Positions 8,306 to 16,691 of a stretch of DNA of 32,764 nucleotides are shown here, piece by piece. The DNA lies in contig PLTD01000045.1 of the NCBI GenBank assembly GCA_003165335.1, positions 5,387-38,150 of the forward strand, given 5' to 3'. Position 1 is the first letter of the stretch; each line of letters opens with the position of its first letter. This DNA comes from Rhodospirillales bacterium. GTDB lineage: Bacteria; Pseudomonadota; Alphaproteobacteria; BOG-932; Roseiterribacteraceae. A program made the translations under genes and the position numbers. The notes under the pieces are model-generated. The model ran no database searches and was not told the origin of the DNA. It saw nothing but the letters and a program-made list of their open reading frames with translations.

Positions 8306-9934
8306 TCATTTTTTGACTCGATACAGTGCCGCAACTTGGCCGGCTTCCACAGGATCAAGTCTGTCCGGCAATAGCCGATAACCCTCGGCTATTTCGCTCG
8401 GATGCATCACAAGCACCCAATCGAATTTCTCCTGCCAACCGAGCAAATACGGCGCCCATTTCAACGTCGCCGGATCAGGCCCTGCAAGCCCGCCGGCCCA
8501 AGGCAGTTCGCCTTCGGGCAAAGACAACGCGTCGTAGGGCGGCATGACCCTTACCGGCTGCTTCGTTGGCGCCGTGAATAAAAGCGGCCAGAACGCTCCA
8601 TGCTCGATAACCAACAATGCCGGCAGATGCATCGTCGAGTCATTGTAGCGCATTGCCCGCACGCTGTCGGGCCGGTTGACCATTGCCTTCGGGTCGGCAT
8701 TGCGCTCGGCCTGGACGACCAGGACGCGCTCGCCCGGCTGAACCAGCCGGACGACCCGCCTAAAATCAGCGATTTGAGCATCATGTGCAGCCCAAACTCT
8801 GCCGACGTCGAAAGTTCGCGCGGCAATCGCGACCGCAAATGCAACGACGATCAACTGCGCAGTACGACCGGGCCGCACAATCGGAAATGTCCCGGCGAAC
8901 AGTAGATAGCCGGCCAAAATTGGCATCCGCTGATCTACCCAGGCAGTCTGCATCAAAAAAAAGGGCACGAAGGGGTATATGGCCAGGAGACCAACAAACA
9001 GGCCTGCGAGAGACGGCGCGATTTGCAATCGATGCTCAATTGCGAAAACTGTCATCACCACAGCCACGAGAATCACCGCACCGGAGTCGAGCAAACGGTC
9101 ATAGGTTAGGAACGGGCCCATCAACCCGTAAAGCTTCAAGCCGTCAGGTGATGCCGATAGAGCCCAATAATAATGCTTCAGCACATCGACTATTCCATGA
9201 CCACCAGCGGGGTCATCCGCACTGATGGGTGCGCGCAAATAGAGTACCGCCGGGACGACAAACGGTAAGGTCAGTAAGGCCACACGCTTGAGCATCTTGC
9301 TCAGCCAGTCGGCCTGCCGGCGCAATTGCCACGCGCGCGATGTTTCTAGGCTGAGTAAGAGTAGGCCGAAGAATGCAACCGCAATCAAATGGCAGAAGAA
9401 AATCACAATCGCCGCCACCGCCGCAGCGCTAATCTTCAGTAGGGTCGAACGCTCCTGCATAGATCGCCACAGAGCAGCGGCGAGCAGCGCCAACCCGACC
9501 CCAATCAAAAAATTAAGAAATCCGCTAAAGAACAACCGGTTGTACGCAACCAACCCAGCGGCTAACGGCCAATAGCTGAGCCTGCCAAATACCGAACGAT
9601 GCAACGCTGCGACGCCGGCAAGTGGCAAGATTAAGGCCAGACCTACGAATATCTTTCCCGAGATCATAAGCGGAACGACATGCATTAGAGCCGGCATGGC
9701 GAGGTCGATGCCGATGTTCGGCACGATCCGCCAGTGCACACCATAAATTTTCGCCAGCGCCGTGTCGCCCGGCAACCGCGCAAGGATATCCATGCGCGCT
9801 AGATGGTTCGGATAGTCGAGCAATGGTGGTATTTCCGTAAGAAAGATCGGAACCAGCAAAACTGCAATGAGCGCGACAAATACCGACCACCAAGTTGCCG
9901 CATTTGCACCGCGAACCGTGATCATGTCCTGCAT
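8306..9934 (-). CDS. Polytopic membrane protein, putative GT-C-type glycosyltransferase
   Basis: About 542 residues from the ATG at 9934, which has an AGAGAGA sequence upstream; the frame is open to another possible start at 9988. Ten or more hydrophobic segments fill the first 400 residues. A soluble tail of about 130 residues follows (RVLVVQAERNADPKAM ... LLGWQEKFDWVLVMHPSE). The first extracytoplasmic loop holds an acidic motif, EIPPLLDYPNHLARM, placed where GT-C enzymes that use polyprenyl-phosphate sugars keep their catalytic acid. I do not recognise a named family. Glycan assembly is inferred from topology and from the neighbouring glycosyltransferase, deacetylase and flippase. Convergent with ccmI. 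Confidence 0.75.
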   Translation of the reverse strand: MQDMITVRGANAATWWSVFVALIAVLLVPIFLTEIPPLLDYPNHLARMDILARLPGDTALAKIYGVHWRIVPNIGIDLAMPALMHVVPLMISGKIFVGLALILPLAGVAALHRSVFGRLSYWPLAAGLVAYNRLFFSGFLNFLIGVGLALLAAALWRSMQERSTLLKISAAAVAAIVIFFCHLIAVAFFGLLLLSLETSRAWQLRRQADWLSKMLKRVALLTLPFVVPAVLYLRAPISADDPAGGHGIVDVLKHYYWALSASPDGLKLYGLMGPFLTYDRLLDSGAVILVAVVMTVFAIEHRLQIAPSLAGLFVGLLAIYPFVPFFLMQTAWVDQRMPILAGYLLFAGTFPIVRPGRTAQLIVVAFAVAIAARTFDVGRVWAAHDAQIADFRRVVRLVQPGERVLVVQAERNADPKAMVNRPDSVRAMRYNDSTMHLPALLVIEHGAFWPLLFTAPTKQPVRVMPPYDALSLPEGELPWAGGLAGPDPATLKWAPYLLGWQEKFDWVLVMHPSEIAEGYRLLPDRLDPVEAGQVAALYRVKK

Positions 9935-10036
9935 TTCGGTAACCGGATCTCTCTGACAAATAATCGACGGCCGCCAAGCGGACCACAACAGTGTAACGGC
10001 AATTCACCATGCTGAAATCGAATTCGATATCCCCTA

Positions 10037-10153: not shown

Positions 10154-11329
10154 ATGGCCGTCGTTCCCCGCGAAATACTCCTCTTCGATTTCATCAGCCA
10201 CGAAAATATGCATCTCCCGTTCAATGAGGAGTATTTGCGGACGTTGCGCGCGGCTTTTCCGGATGACGGAATCGTCTTTTATGCGCGGGCCGGACACGCA
10301 AATAATATTATGGCGCGGGTACCCGACCTGACAGGAATCCGTTTCGAGTCTTGTGAGCCGTTTTCCGCACCTCTTGGCCTGTCCAGCCACAACCCAATAG
10401 GCGGCTTGCTCGCCTCTCGCCGCTGCCTTCGCATCATGCGCCACGAGATAGCCGGCCGTGATCTCCGGCTTGTTGCGGTGCTGGGGGTCAACGGCAATCT
10501 GTATGCCACCATCGGACTCCATTGGCACAGGACATCGCAATCACCACTCCATCTGATCCTGCACGGTCAGTTGGGTGATGCGATGATCTGGCGATCGCGC
10601 AATCCGCTGGCTCGCGCATTCGACCTAGCGTCTCAGGTTCGCCATTCCCTGCCCCCATCGGTTAAGCTTGTCGCTTTGGAACTGGGCGTGAAGGAAGCGA
10701 TCGCGGATCTCGCGCCGGAAAATCGGTCTGTGATCACGCTGGAGCACCCGATATTGGTTTCGGAATGGAGCAAGGATCGCCCTCCTGCGAACCGACATAA
10801 GCTCAAGATCGCATTCTTGGGAAACGCACGCCGCAGCAAGGGTTTTGAAATATTCGCCGAATTGGCGCGCCGTTCAAAGCGCACGGACCTGGAGTTCGAC
10901 TCCATAGGTGTTTCAGCGCCGGATACCGACCAACTCGATATCGAAGCACTCTCTCGCAAACCGTCCCGGACCGCGATGGCCCGGGAAGACTATCTTGAGG
11001 CTGTGCGTGGGATCGACCTCGTGTGTCTCCCGCTTCACGGGCGTGCCTATGATTTCACGGCGAGCGGAACCGTCGCCGACGCGGTGTCCGCACTAAAGCC
11101 TTTGATCGCTTTTCGCAGCCGGACTCTCGACGCAATTACTGCGCGGTACGGGCCGATTGGTTGGTTGGTCGAGAGCGATGTCGAGCTTTTCGAGCTTGTT
11201 GGCGCGCTTGAACTACAGGCGTTTTCGGATTTGCGTCCGAAATGGGTGGAGAACTTGCGCAAAATGCGTGAAGCGCGGCGCCCGGAGGCGCTTGCAGGGG
11301 CCTATGCCGCACTCATCGCGGCTCCTTGA
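10154..11329 (+). CDS. Putative GT-B-type glycosyltransferase
   Basis: 391 residues, soluble. The ATG is preceded by AGGAAG at good spacing. Two Rossmann-like halves are suggested. The C-terminal one has a family-4-like opening (KLKIAFLGNARRSKGFEIF), then DYLEAVRGIDLVCLPL and TASGTVADAVSALKPLIAF, which resemble the donor-binding region with its small-residue/acidic motif. The N-terminal half carries HGQLGDAMIW. Likely transfers a sugar during cell-surface glycan assembly, given the deacetylase and flippase nearby. Donor and acceptor cannot be read from the sequence. Convergent with the next gene (22-nt gap). Confidence 0.7.
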   Translation: MAVVPREILLFDFISHENMHLPFNEEYLRTLRAAFPDDGIVFYARAGHANNIMARVPDLTGIRFESCEPFSAPLGLSSHNPIGGLLASRRCLRIMRHEIAGRDLRLVAVLGVNGNLYATIGLHWHRTSQSPLHLILHGQLGDAMIWRSRNPLARAFDLASQVRHSLPPSVKLVALELGVKEAIADLAPENRSVITLEHPILVSEWSKDRPPANRHKLKIAFLGNARRSKGFEIFAELARRSKRTDLEFDSIGVSAPDTDQLDIEALSRKPSRTAMAREDYLEAVRGIDLVCLPLHGRAYDFTASGTVADAVSALKPLIAFRSRTLDAITARYGPIGWLVESDVELFELVGALELQAFSDLRPKWVENLRKMREARRPEALAGAYAALIAAP

Positions 11330-11351: not shown

Positions 11352-13820
11352 CTATTCGGCAGCAACCCTCGCCTCGGGACGTCTCGCTGTTTCAAGGCGC
11401 TCTCTGTCAACCGACTCGCGAAAGCCTCGCGGGGTCATAAACACTCCGCCGATGTCGCTCGCGAAAAAAGCAAAGTACTCCTCGAGCCATCCGTAGAACT
11501 TCACCAGCTTTGCTTCGTCATCGACATAGGGTGTGCTGCCGGGCGTCAAAGACGTGCTGTGAAAGGCCAGCGTGAACACCCGCTCGCCGCTCGCCAGCAG
11601 GTGATGGGTTAGCGCTTTTGCTTCTTTGATCATGACGCCTTCGGGCGTCAGGTTTACTCTGTTTATCAATCCCATACGGGCGAATATTCCCGGAAGATGG
11701 AAAAATCGGCCGATCTTCCCGTTGATCGCCCTAAACAAACCATCGTGGCTGGAAAGGAGACCGATGAAACTTGTGGTCAAAGGCAGTTCCAAAAGCTGAT
11801 GGTCCGGATCTATCCAAAAGGGACTTGTGGCCCGAAATTCTGTAAAATCGGGACCGCCATCGATCGAATAGTCGCGCGTCGGCACAACGCTCAAATCGAT
11901 CTTGAAACCCTGATCTATTAATATTTGCGGTGTGGCAGCACCGATGCCGTAACGCCCCGCCTTATACGATATCGGCTTTACACCCAGATTCTTCTCGATA
12001 GTCGATGTCAGAACGCGCAGCTTTTCCGCTTCCAGATCGGAAGGAAGATTGAACGGGTAGGTGTTACGGACAGTAATTTCCTCCGAGAAGGGAGGATTGA
12101 TCCAAGGATGCAGATGCGCCCCGATCTCACATCGTCCATCCGCAACGATCTTCGCTAATGACTGATAGCCCTCTGGTTGGCTCGCGATCGCGTAGTCGAT
12201 CATATAAACGGGTTTGACCGAGCATCTGTCGAACATCGATTGCAGCCGTTCAATTTGACTCATGCCATGGACAGCAATCGAGGAAGACGAATAATCGGCA
12301 TTCCAATCAAAATTCTCTTCGGTATCGACGACCACGAGCAGAATCGGCCTGCGATCCGCAGACAAGCTCAAAGTCTGTGCCGGCGCGGGTGGCGTGAATA
12401 TGTTTAACCTAGTGTCACGTTTGAAAATCGGGTCCCCTCGCATAGTCCGATAGACATATTTCAGTGGCTGTTTCAGGCCGAGCGATTCGGCCCGCTGGCG
12501 AAACCAGGGCATGATGACATAATTCTTTTCCGGCTCGAGCAGATAGGCCGTCGTACCCAGCGGGTTGCGACGGAAATATCGCCAGCGGAATCTCGCATAC
12601 TCCTCCTTGGTGTAGACCTTCGCGTTACCACCCAGTTTTGCGACAAGAGGCGTGAATCTAGGATAAAGGTTGGTGTTAGTGAGATGCACCTTCATGAAAT
12701 TGCCGATCAAAAGATCGTCGAAAAAGCCCCACTTCATCGTCTCCATAAAGGACTGTTTCGGCGCATAAAATCGGATTCCACGAGCATCCGGTTGATCGGC
12801 CGTCTCGGCATTAATATCGAATCGGCCGGTCTCACCGCCTATGACGACTTCTATAAAATCGACATACTCACGAATCAGCTCAAATTGCCGGAAAAACGTC
12901 TCGACGATTTTCCATTCTTCCGGTTGTAGTGTCGCGCTCCAATCATCGTCTGCTGTACGCGCGCTGATTTGCGACCGGTCACCGCCCAAATGGTCGGTGT
13001 GATTTGCTGTCACCAAACCGGTTGTGATGTCGACTGTTACGAACGGCTCGATCAGGCAAACATTGGGGCGGCTCCAATGTCTACGCATATCGGCCCAAGA
13101 AATCCGATAGTCGTTCGCCCACACTGAATCCGGTCGAACATAAATATGCTGCGACGAGGAGCAGCAAAAATTTTTGACGCCCAGACGGTCAGCCCCGCGA
13201 GCCACCGTCCAGACGGCTCCCGGTTTGCGCTCGTCGGGTGGCCCCGCGATCGAGCGCCCGCTTTCATCGACAAAATTGAACATATCAGCATCGATCGAGC
13301 AGAGCGCCGCAAGATAAGTTTTGTCGTTAGGATGTTGCTTGACGAGGCGCCGCAGGAACGACTCCTCTCCCGCAATTGGCGAATCGTTCTGGTTGATCAA
13401 CAAGGCATCGCCCAGTTTGGCGATGAGGATCGCATCCTGATTAATATTGTCCAGACACATCACGGATACCGATCGGGAGATCTGAAACCATTCGCGGTAT
13501 TTGAGTACCGTTACGGCAAAACCTTTTTCAGTAAGAAAGTTTCTGATCTCCGGATGGTAATGATCCGGAACAAGGAATTTCTTACCGGCTGGCAGCAGAT
13601 CCAGCGATTCGTGATGCAAGTGATCGGGGTGGCCGTGCGAGATCCAGATATAATCCGAATTGATCACGTTCTTGATTTGCTCGGCAGTCAACGCGTGATC
13701 GAGCGCCCAACTCCCAAAATAGCAGGTCCCGACCAGCCAGGGATCGGTAGCTAGGACAGGTCGCCCATCCGCGAATAGCTGAATGGTCGCGTTACCCAGC
13801 GTTTCGAATTTTTCGTTCAT
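11352..13820 (-). CDS. Fusion protein: metallo-beta-lactamase-fold domain plus WalW-like polysaccharide deacetylase
   Basis: 822 residues with two catalytic-looking halves. Residues about 1-290 are a metallo-beta-lactamase-type fold of the UlaG/CMP-sialate-hydroxylase kind, with DPWLVGTCYFGSW and the metal motif SHGHPDH (His62, His64, Asp66, His67). Residues about 360-470 form a linker region without a recognised motif. Residues about 490-800 are a NodB-related deacetylase of the WalW type: VVVDTEENFDW (Asp499, Glu501), EIGAHLHPW (569-573) and SYKAGRYG. Members of the second family remove acyl groups from polysaccharides, or are presumed to. No signal peptide or membrane segment is visible, so it probably acts in the cytoplasm on a lipid-linked or nucleotide-linked sugar. 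Follows the flippase gene on the same strand after about 118 nt. Confidence 0.85.
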   Translation of the reverse strand: MNEKFETLGNATIQLFADGRPVLATDPWLVGTCYFGSWALDHALTAEQIKNVINSDYIWISHGHPDHLHHESLDLLPAGKKFLVPDHYHPEIRNFLTEKGFAVTVLKYREWFQISRSVSVMCLDNINQDAILIAKLGDALLINQNDSPIAGEESFLRRLVKQHPNDKTYLAALCSIDADMFNFVDESGRSIAGPPDERKPGAVWTVARGADRLGVKNFCCSSSQHIYVRPDSVWANDYRISWADMRRHWSRPNVCLIEPFVTVDITTGLVTANHTDHLGGDRSQISARTADDDWSATLQPEEWKIVETFFRQFELIREYVDFIEVVIGGETGRFDINAETADQPDARGIRFYAPKQSFMETMKWGFFDDLLIGNFMKVHLTNTNLYPRFTPLVAKLGGNAKVYTKEEYARFRWRYFRRNPLGTTAYLLEPEKNYVIMPWFRQRAESLGLKQPLKYVYRTMRGDPIFKRDTRLNIFTPPAPAQTLSLSADRRPILLVVVDTEENFDWNADYSSSSIAVHGMSQIERLQSMFDRCSVKPVYMIDYAIASQPEGYQSLAKIVADGRCEIGAHLHPWINPPFSEEITVRNTYPFNLPSDLEAEKLRVLTSTIEKNLGVKPISYKAGRYGIGAATPQILIDQGFKIDLSVVPTRDYSIDGGPDFTEFRATSPFWIDPDHQLLELPLTTSFIGLLSSHDGLFRAINGKIGRFFHLPGIFARMGLINRVNLTPEGVMIKEAKALTHHLLASGERVFTLAFHSTSLTPGSTPYVDDEAKLVKFYGWLEEYFAFFASDIGGVFMTPRGFRESVDRERLETARRPEARVAAE

Positions 13821-13938: not shown

Positions 13939-15501
13939 TCATTTCGCGGACACCGGCTTTTCGGTGAATAGGCCAAGCCGGGCGAGAAGCTTCGGCATCG
14001 CCTTCGCGGCGTGATCTTCCGGTCCGGTAGGTCGCCCGCAGAGCACCCAAAGACCGAGCAATGGCCCGGTGTAAAGTAACCCGCCAATCGCAATGGCAAT
14101 GGCGAGTTCCCCGGATCGCCCTGCCATCGTCGCATCGTATGGCCAAATAGAAAGGAAATAGGCAACACCCGCGGTCATAATCCCGGTCGCAGTAAAGGTC
14201 CGCCAGACAGCGGCCAAAGTCCGCTTGATTGACAAACCTATCATAGTCGTGAGTTGACCAAACCAGATGGCTGAACTGAAAAAGCTGGTCAGAGCGAACA
14301 TGATAGCCGCCCAAATCACGCCATAGGCGAAGCCGGCCCAAACAACGAGTATAACTCGGATCAATACAGTCAGAGTCATGATCGCGACAAACCTGCGCTG
14401 CCGATCTTTGACAACGTACAGATTATGAGTGAACTCACCGATGCCTTCGAACAGGGCGTAAAATGCGCAGACCCGTATAAATGCCGCTGCACCCAACCAT
14501 TCCGGCCCAAGCGCAACCTCTTCGATAAGTTTCGCGACTAGCGCTATTCCAACCGATAGCGGGGTAATGATCATCAAGGTGAGCGCCAAGCCGTCAACCA
14601 CGTGGCGACACAGTCGGTCATTGTCGTGGAGTACTTTCGCGTAGCCGGCATACATTGGCCCCCGAATCGGAGCGGCAACTTCGCTGACAGGTAGAATGCC
14701 AATCTGTTCGGCCGTTCGAAATAGGCCGACAGATCCAGCCCCGCCAATTCGGCCAATCAAGATAATGATCAAATAATTATTCGCGAGGCTTAGGATATTT
14801 GTCGCGAACAGCCACTTCGAAAAGCCCAGCAATTCGCTACCCGCCTTGAGCGAAAAGCGCGGTCTGTAGGGATGCATAATAAAGCTGGCCGGAACCTGCA
14901 CAACCTTAGGAGCAATGGTGCCCAGCACCACCGCCCAGGCATTGTGAAGGATTAGTGCGGCCGGAATGACCACGACAAATCCGGCGACTTTGCCCAGAAC
15001 ATCATAAACAAAAAGCCGATCGAACCGCAGGTCCCGCTGGAAATCGATTAGCCCAATGTTTTCAAAGCCCCATATGACTGGATAGAGCGCCATCACACGC
15101 GTGACGTCGACAAGTCTCGGCTCGCGCATCGCTTCGGCGATCCAGGGGGCGGACAAAAATACAAGTCCCCCGATTACAAAACCCCGCAAGACGATTAGCG
15201 TCCATGCAGAGTCATACTGCTCGCGCGTCGGATGCTTCATCTTGACCAACGCCAAGCCAAATGAAAAGTCTGCGATCGCGTTCAACGTGTCGTATGCGGT
15301 GGATGCAATCGCTGCTAAGCCGAATGCGTCGGGCGCAAGCAACCGAACCAAAATCAGCGTACTGAAAAGGCCAATTCCTTTGAAGGCCAGACGCTTCAAA
15401 ACCATCCAGGCAGCGCCCTTCGCCACGCGCTTGCCGAGAGACTGGTCTACGATGGCTTCTGCGATTGCACTTGGAAGAATAGAGTCTGGCGTCAGTTCCA
15501 C
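13939..15501 (-). CDS. Oligosaccharide flippase, Wzx/RfbX type (MATE-like superfamily)
   Basis: About 520 residues with 12 or more membrane segments. Diagnostic opening: LGKRVAKGAAWMVLKR followed by STLILVRLLAPDAFGLAAIA, and later VSEVAAPIRGPMYAGYAKV, as in WzxC-like lipopolysaccharide and exopolysaccharide exporters. It would flip undecaprenyl-linked repeat units across the inner membrane. Start choice: the frame is open to a TTG at 15543, but a GTG at 15501 has AAGG six bases upstream and gives a family-like short N-terminus. Probably cotranscribed with the deacetylase fusion downstream; divergent from the radical SAM gene. Confidence 0.88.
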   Translation of the reverse strand: MELTPDSILPSAIAEAIVDQSLGKRVAKGAAWMVLKRLAFKGIGLFSTLILVRLLAPDAFGLAAIASTAYDTLNAIADFSFGLALVKMKHPTREQYDSAWTLIVLRGFVIGGLVFLSAPWIAEAMREPRLVDVTRVMALYPVIWGFENIGLIDFQRDLRFDRLFVYDVLGKVAGFVVVIPAALILHNAWAVVLGTIAPKVVQVPASFIMHPYRPRFSLKAGSELLGFSKWLFATNILSLANNYLIIILIGRIGGAGSVGLFRTAEQIGILPVSEVAAPIRGPMYAGYAKVLHDNDRLCRHVVDGLALTLMIITPLSVGIALVAKLIEEVALGPEWLGAAAFIRVCAFYALFEGIGEFTHNLYVVKDRQRRFVAIMTLTVLIRVILVVWAGFAYGVIWAAIMFALTSFFSSAIWFGQLTTMIGLSIKRTLAAVWRTFTATGIMTAGVAYFLSIWPYDATMAGRSGELAIAIAIGGLLYTGPLLGLWVLCGRPTGPEDHAAKAMPKLLARLGLFTEKPVSAK

Positions 15502-15623
15502 TTCGGGCCTTGTTGGTTGATCAGCGATTCCCCCCACTTCCAACTATACCGCGTTAATTCGCTTTTTGGTTTTTTCACGCATTCCGATAGGTACTGATCT
15601 CGTTTCGAGAGGATATTGCTTAC

Positions 15624-16691
15624 ATGACCCGGCCAATACTGGTCTCAGATGCCAAGGTGGACGCCGCGACAGCTGCAAGTTCAACCATTCGAACTGTTAC
15701 TGCCTTAGTAGGGGCAGGTCTGGTCTCTGCCGGCATAGCGGGGGATCTGCAAGCTGTAAGCGAACGCTATGCCATTGCGATAACGCCGGATATGGCGCGA
15801 ATCATCGATCCCGCGGACCCGGCGGATCCGATCGCACGGCAATTTGTGCCAAGTCCCGGCGAACTCATCACTACGCCCGACGAGCTTGCAGATCCTATCG
15901 GAGACAAAAGCCATTCGCCGATTAAAGGAATTATCCACCGTTATCCCGACAGGGTGCTGTTGAAAGCACTGCATACATGCCCGGTCTATTGCCGCTTTTG
16001 CTTCCGGCGTGAACAGGTGGGGCCGGGGGGTGAATTGCTGACCGGTGAGGAACTCGATGCTGCTATCGGCTATATCCGCGCCAATCCCGCCGTTTGGGAG
16101 GTAATTTTGACCGGTGGCGACCCGCTGATGCTATCGCCCCGCAGGCTAGGGGAAATTCTCGATGCGTTGGAAGCCATCCCTCATGTTGAGACGCTGCGGA
16201 TCCACACCCGGGTTCCGGTTGTGGATCCGGCTAGAATCTCACCCTCCTTGCTCAAAGTCCTTTCAAGGCAAAAACCGCTATGGATTGCGATCCATGCCAA
16301 CCACCCGCGCGAGCTAACCGCTGACGCGAAGAATGCCTGCAGAAGCTTAACTCAAGTAGGCGTTGCCTTACTCGGTCAGACCGTTCTGCTACGCGGGGTG
16401 AACGATGACGCGGCAGTCCTAGAAGCTCTGTTTCGCGCAATGGTGACAATGAGAATTAAGCCATATTATCTGCATCATCCGGATCTGGCCCCGGGGACTT
16501 CCGATTTCAGGCTCCCAATTGCCGAGGGCCAGAATATCATGCGCACGTTGCGCGGGCGCTTGTCCGGGCTAGCACAGCCAACCTATGTTCTCGATATTCC
16601 CGGGGGCGCGGGCAAAGTCCCGATCGGTCCAAACATGGTTGAGACTGATGGCGTTCGTGACCTCGCCAACCGCCTTCACTCTTACGGATAA
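15624..16691 (+). CDS. Lysine 2,3-aminomutase-family radical SAM protein (KamA/EpmB group)
   Basis: 355 residues. Radical SAM cluster motif HTCPVYCRFCFRRE (Cys119, Cys123, Cys126), TGGDPLM for SAM binding, and PLP lysine in DIPGGAGKVP (Lys331). Residues that bind substrate lysine in clostridial lysine 2,3-aminomutase appear to be kept at matching spacing: Arg110 in HRYPDRV, Asp287 in HHPDLAPG and Asp324 in YVLDIPGG. The spacing Asp-37-Asp-7-Lys equals that of the clostridial enzyme. It lacks that enzyme's longer C-terminus. Either free lysine (to beta-lysine) or a lysine destined for elongation factor P could be the substrate; no epmA or efp is adjacent. An AGAGGA sequence precedes the ATG. 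Confidence 0.9.
   Translation: MTRPILVSDAKVDAATAASSTIRTVTALVGAGLVSAGIAGDLQAVSERYAIAITPDMARIIDPADPADPIARQFVPSPGELITTPDELADPIGDKSHSPIKGIIHRYPDRVLLKALHTCPVYCRFCFRREQVGPGGELLTGEELDAAIGYIRANPAVWEVILTGGDPLMLSPRRLGEILDALEAIPHVETLRIHTRVPVVDPARISPSLLKVLSRQKPLWIAIHANHPRELTADAKNACRSLTQVGVALLGQTVLLRGVNDDAAVLEALFRAMVTMRIKPYYLHHPDLAPGTSDFRLPIAEGQNIMRTLRGRLSGLAQPTYVLDIPGGAGKVPIGPNMVETDGVRDLANRLHSYG

Follow-up and report, generated by a model that had tools for sequence, protein, structure and literature searches.

The gene analysed here lies on the minus strand of the window, by which we mean the whole stretch of DNA analysed (32,764 nucleotides). Its parts and its direct neighbours are the following:

10154..11329, plus strand: 391-aa convergent neighbour, with no detectable family.
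11352..13820, minus strand: fusion gene, CMAH-like metallo-beta-lactamase (MBL) domain plus NodB/WalW-like domain; 822-aa open reading frame, the fusion also being found in L058 and L059.
12426..13820, minus strand: N-terminal half, aa 1-465, MBL-fold domain of CMAH/CmlA type, as judged by AlphaFold, PDB fold matches, hhalign, and PDB profile matches.
13620..13640, minus strand: SHGHPDH, aa 61-67, metal motif HxHxDH; H62, H64, D66, and H67 are invariant in 46 relatives and in the wider superfamily.
13434..13436, minus strand: D129 in an NQD motif, invariant in 46 relatives; by the alignment, it would lie near the usual place of the motif-3 His of MBL hydrolases.
13377..13394, minus strand: NQNDSP, aa 143-148; N145 and D146 are invariant in 46 relatives, D146 being the motif-4 Asp.
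13146..13148, minus strand: H225 (SQH), invariant in 46 relatives; the CMAH-type proteins compared do not have it.
12363..12425, minus strand: linker, aa 466-486, with 52% identity between G000 and G002 and AlphaFold pLDDT <50 at 471-480.
11406..12362, minus strand: C-terminal half, aa 487-805, NodB-fold (WalW/ArnD-like) domain, as judged by the AlphaFold model and by Foldseek and VIA-align matches.
12303..12326, minus strand: DTEENFDW, aa 499-506, at the position of NodB motif 1; D499, E501, and E502 are invariant.
12102..12116, minus strand: HLHPW, aa 569-573, at the position of NodB motif 2; H571 is invariant, and most relatives have H or Q at 569.
13939..15543, minus strand: Wzx-type flippase upstream of the fusion gene (Pfam PF13440, Polysacc_synt_3, E=4.6e-62), separated from it by a 118-base gap.

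The open reading frame of the fusion begins with ATG and contains zero internal stops. A full-length fusion with about 80% identity to the window protein is also present in L058 (assembly G002), and in L059 (assembly G001) the junction is read through before the contig ends 78 aa inside the second half. Together with the window genome (G000), three assemblies of one genus thus carry the fusion. Both halves are under purifying selection: between G000 and G002, dN was 0.088 and dN/dS 0.045 for the MBL half, and dN was 0.178 and dN/dS 0.081 for the deacetylase half, dS being close to 2 and saturated in either case. As three assemblies carry the fusion and dN/dS is low in both halves, we conclude that it is a real, maintained protein, and an origin by assembly join or by sequencing error, the latter named as a caveat in the earlier note, was rejected. 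The identity between the two full-length proteins is 86% in the MBL domain and 74% in the deacetylase domain, in comparison to only 52% in the linker. The two halves were modelled by AlphaFold separately and not as one chain, and a joint alignment of both halves was discarded, since MAFFT had put deacetylase-only rows onto the MBL half. A hydropathy analysis of the fusion protein found no transmembrane or export segment (the best 19-residue Kyte-Doolittle mean was 1.51, at an internal position), in agreement with the absence of an export signal that had already been noted.

In all three genomes (window, L058, and L059), the fusion gene is preceded by the flippase gene, with unchanged order and strand, and the two genes likely form a transcription unit, flippase first. 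The earlier note had placed the gene between this flippase and a glycosyltransferase, and only the flippase stood up to profile searches. For the 391-aa convergent neighbour, there was no Pfam, NCBIfam, or PDB support for a glycosyltransferase identity, which we consequently rejected, and as this gene is transcribed towards the fusion, it is outside the operon of the fusion. Further away, the window encodes a lysine-2,3-aminomutase-like radical SAM protein (15624-16691, plus strand; TIGR03822), whose gene diverges from the flippase gene in the window as well as in L058, and a hydrophobic, probably multi-spanning membrane protein of 560 aa without Pfam or NCBIfam match (8306-9988, minus strand), which is found beside the fusion in L058 as well.

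The N-terminal half was modelled with a pLDDT of 93.5. Structure comparison assigned residues 1-276 to the MBL fold, with PDB matches up to Z 18.4, and an extra C-terminal region (aa ~300-460) was barely covered by the matched structures. The HxHxDH signature, a classical feature of MBL hydrolases, is present with H62, H64, D66, and H67 at the place described in the earlier note. No invariant His was found among the 46 relatives in the region of the motif-3 metal-binding His, where the alignment, as opposed to a solved structure, has N or Q followed by the invariant D129. By fold score alone, hydrolases and CmlA were alike (Z 18.4 to 17.8). When the PDB was searched with a broadened profile, oxygenases came first (FrsH with E=1.4e-13 and CmlA with E about 1.5e-7) and hydrolases followed behind them (NAPE-PLD with 1.8e-5, SaxA with 9e-5, and UPF0173 with 5e-4), a ranking that may be tilted by the CMAH-type rows contained in this profile. 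The narrow family profile yielded only weak PDB matches, including FrsH, and a direct phmmer search of the PDB with the window protein yielded no match, so that profiles were needed; a CMAH structure was not among the PDB matches of either profile.

CMAH is a Rieske hydroxylase of CMP-Neu5Ac that converts the N-acetyl into an N-glycolyl group; a study of CMAH is among the references of PMC8480522. The first lead to CMAH had come from a mouse CMAH sequence, which was later replaced by real bacterial Rieske+MBL proteins (L138-L140) picked from weak matches of the class search, with the Rieske domain recognized by Pfam in L138 and L140. These alphaproteobacterial proteins (L138:3062-4783, L139:2533-4242, and L140:2711-4480) combine an N-terminal Rieske motif with a CMAH-type MBL domain and are CMAH-like hydroxylases. 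The hhalign comparison with them gave a probability of 99.1 and E=1.8e-18 over 363 columns, and the match begins at the first strands and extends as far as the C-terminal (D/E)DLxIG motif. The window protein itself has no Pfam match to a Rieske [2Fe-2S] domain, whereas L138 and L140 match PF00355. The fusion protein contains no dedicated electron donor, and neither such a donor nor a Rieske domain was observed beside its gene. There is also no N-terminal CmlA domain, as residue 1 of the model aligns to CmlA residue 249 with nothing before it. As far as sequence profiles can tell, the N-terminal half is placed beside oxygenases of the CMAH/NamH type and the CmlA/FrsH type, and hydrolases come lower in score. 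As it has no Rieske domain and possesses H225, a hydrolase-like ligand, we did not file it as a member of the CMAH/NamH family. NamH, which combines a UlaG-type MBL with a Rieske domain, is a hydroxylase of N-acetyl muramic acid (PMC10050696), and FrsH, a relative of CmlA, is described as a diiron hydroxylase (PMC7794379).

The C-terminal half was modelled with moderate confidence (pLDDT 75). Its structure matches were 3rxz_B (Z 22.3), 3qbu (22.1), 1z7a (20.5), PuuE (20.4), and ArnD (8t0j, 17.9), at about 11-18% identity to solved NodB structures, and they include known CE4 pseudoenzymes. Together with the MBL fold of the other half, these models and matches bear out the view that two enzyme folds are joined in one chain. 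The DTEENFDW and HLHPW motifs are where the earlier note had located them, and D499, E501, E502, H571, R623, and H754 do not vary among 11 sequences of the C-terminal family. For the deacetylase assignment made at that time, the fold held and the signature did not: the canonical NodB/CE4 motifs TFDD and H(S/T)xxH are replaced by VDTEE and HLHPW, and no Pfam family matches the C-terminal half, PF01522 reaching only a sub-threshold 16.4 bits in the relative L067. A survey singled out the NodB1.2 group as having weak canonical motifs, as largely untested, and as nearest to ArnD (PMC10967932); the NodB subclass nearest to the C-terminal half includes metal-independent and untested proteins (PMC10967932). 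Judging from the model, the C-terminal half has a divergent form of the NodB fold, nearest to NodB1.2 proteins and ArnD, and deacylation or deacetylation by this half is plausible.

In everything searched, the fusion was restricted to one genus. A scan with the MBL profile over one genome per species (84,980 species) found 80 loci, and only L058 and L059 were fused; the remaining relatives (about 75) are essentially all free-standing proteins of about 460 aa, with a few broken or cut at contig ends. Outside the genus, no fusion was found in 387 genomes of the class or in 398 of the phylum. The deacetylase-type half is frequent in Pseudomonadota, where about 60 of the 398 genomes contain it. 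The window genome encodes a second, free-standing and intact MBL paralogue with 50% identity (G000:C27:3078-4478) and no further deacetylase of the type found in the fusion. In the sister genome G002, the free-standing MBL paralogue is apparently broken into pieces (L045:2518-3086, G002:C7). Several metagenome bins with the titles 'Bifidobacterium breve' or 'Asaia bogorensis' (L110, L062, L066, L068, and L069) look mislabelled, and the 'Asaia bogorensis' title spans clearly different sequences.

The closer MBL subfamily (at least 46% identity) comprises about 30 loci, and in nine genomes among them a separate MBL gene has a deacetylase-type gene as its neighbour. These nine are counted as about five arrangements, as several of the loci are closely related. 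In L084 and L085, the MBL gene is followed by the deacetylase gene on one strand, which is the order of the fusion, with about 90 bases between the matches. L061-L064 have the order MBL-GT2-deacetylase, L070 has the order deacetylase-TylF-MBL, and the MBL gene adjoins a GT2-deacetylase fusion in L067 and a GT4-deacetylase fusion in L060. By chance, far less than one such pair would be expected in about 30 loci, a rough estimate that assumes about 0.15 deacetylase-type genes in a genome of about 4 Mb, with 16 kb of DNA examined per locus. Most stand-alone MBL relatives have no adjoining deacetylase gene in the DNA examined: other loci of the closer subfamily show flippase-MBL-GT8 (L071 and L072) or MBL-GT8 (L081), and the more distant ones (L090-L136, about 32-38% identity) have zero deacetylase neighbours. 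In the deacetylase-domain tree, pairing requires four changes, two of which are forced by strongly supported branches; although this suggests a repeated independent origin of pairing, we do not claim it, as a single clade was not rejected (p-AU 0.26).

The deacetylase-type domain also occurs fused to GT2 (L047:6725-8782, L048:6115-8112, L052:6023-7849, and L067:2597-4573) and to GT4 (L060:9468-11756), which is an independent hint that this domain may act on glycosylation products. In unrelated genomes, free-standing MBL genes have a TylF-type methyltransferase gene as their direct neighbour (L070:1468-2247, L043:10694-11368, and L134:7266-7979), and this methyltransferase is possibly a third enzyme of the same pathway. 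As both halves recur as separate neighbours in other glycan loci, the functional link to the modification of glycan precursors, which the earlier note had proposed to occur before flipping, is much strengthened. The two-hydrolase chemistry that it had assumed did not fare as well, as the MBL half is nearer to oxygenases by sequence.

We tentatively favour the view that the fusion protein is a soluble enzyme of the cytosol with two active sites. Before Wzx-type export of a surface-glycan precursor, it would remodel the N-acyl group that an amino sugar of this precursor carries. The substrate would be an N-acyl amino sugar on a nucleotide- or undecaprenyl-linked precursor. The N-terminal half would be a Rieske-less relative of the MBL-fold oxygenases CMAH, NamH, CmlA, and FrsH, with a metal, most likely iron, bound via H62, H64, D66, H67, D146, and H225 and with D129 nearby, and it may oxidize the acyl group or the sugar. 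By analogy to ArnD, the C-terminal NodB-fold amidohydrolase would remove the N-acyl group, which could be an acetyl, a formyl, or an oxidized acyl group, and the neighbouring Wzx-type flippase would then export the remodelled precursor. The target of ArnD is a lipid-linked amino sugar that has yet to be flipped, and CMAH and NamH act on the N-acetyl groups of activated sugars. In a more specific version, which we regard as unlikely in this exact form, oxidation would gate deacylation: a Rieske-independent CMAH-like iron oxygenase would hydroxylate or oxidize the N-acyl group, and the NodB amidohydrolase would remove the acyl group only thereafter, before Wzx export. Several observations weigh against the favoured reading: the missing Rieske domain and electron donor, the hydrolase-like ligand H225, the equal fold scores of hydrolases and CmlA, the possible tilt of the broadened profile, the altered NodB motifs with the moderately confident model of this half, and the many stand-alone MBL genes that have no deacetylase neighbour.

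The near-complete MBL ligand set formed by HxHxDH, D146, and H225 is what one would expect if the chain contained two hydrolases, of which the MBL half would cleave an ester, lactone, or phosphodiester of the glycan precursor and the NodB half would remove N-acetyl. UlaG/UPF0173-like hydrolases, SaxA, and NAPE-PLD indeed match by fold and, more weakly, by profile. However, the motif-3 His is missing, with an invariant Asp at its place, and the top relatives in the profile searches are oxygenases, so that we consider a pair of hydrolases possible but rather doubtful.

The non-canonical NodB motifs, with Q instead of H at 569 in several relatives, and the CE4 pseudoenzymes among the fold matches could also mean that only one half is catalytic, whereas the other has decayed and is retained as a module that binds the substrate or docks to the flippase or to a glycosyltransferase. 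The low dN/dS of both halves and the invariant D499, E501, H571, R623, and H754 argue against such decay, in the sense of constraint and not of catalysis, and make it quite improbable. That the fusion is limited to three assemblies of one genus might even suggest two unrelated enzymes joined by drift and without functional meaning, but the unfused neighbouring pairs in nine other genomes, against a chance expectation of well under one, render an incidental fusion very improbable. The fusion and the recurring gene pair connect a large uncharacterised branch of CMAH/CmlA-type MBL proteins with the assembly of surface glycans and with a single, defined enzyme as partner. They also point to N-acyl amino sugars carried by a nucleotide or by undecaprenyl as a candidate substrate class of proteins that are seen only as MBL-fold by profile libraries, and they raise the question of whether CMAH/CmlA-type MBL enzymes can work without a Rieske domain.

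The folds of the protein are known, and they are combined in an architecture for which no description was found; the open library searched for WalW, bacterial CMAH, and ArnD/NodB yielded little or nothing. With CMAH and NamH, the fusion shares a homologous MBL-fold domain with DPW, SHxHxDH, Asp at motifs 3 and 4, and the C-terminal (D/E)DLxIG, in the form that Rieske+MBL proteins of this kind show, but it lacks the Rieske domain and has the extra H225 and the fused NodB-fold domain. The UlaG, UPF0173, and NAPE-PLD hydrolases have the MBL fold, HxHxDH, and the counterpart of H225 in common with it, whereas the motif-3 His is replaced and the additional C-terminal region (aa 300-460) is present in the fusion. 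The diiron beta-hydroxylases CmlA and FrsH are the best PDB matches of the N-terminal half by the broadened profile, with a comparable fold score; in contrast to them, the fusion has no N-terminal CmlA domain, and its locus is not a peptide-synthetase locus. ArnD, the NodB1.2-type CE4 proteins (3RXZ, 3QBU, and 1Z7A), and WalW-type deacetylases resemble the fusion in the NodB fold and in their association with glycosyltransferases and flippases, and the fusion differs from all of these in its altered motifs (DTEE and HLHPW) and in the attached MBL domain.
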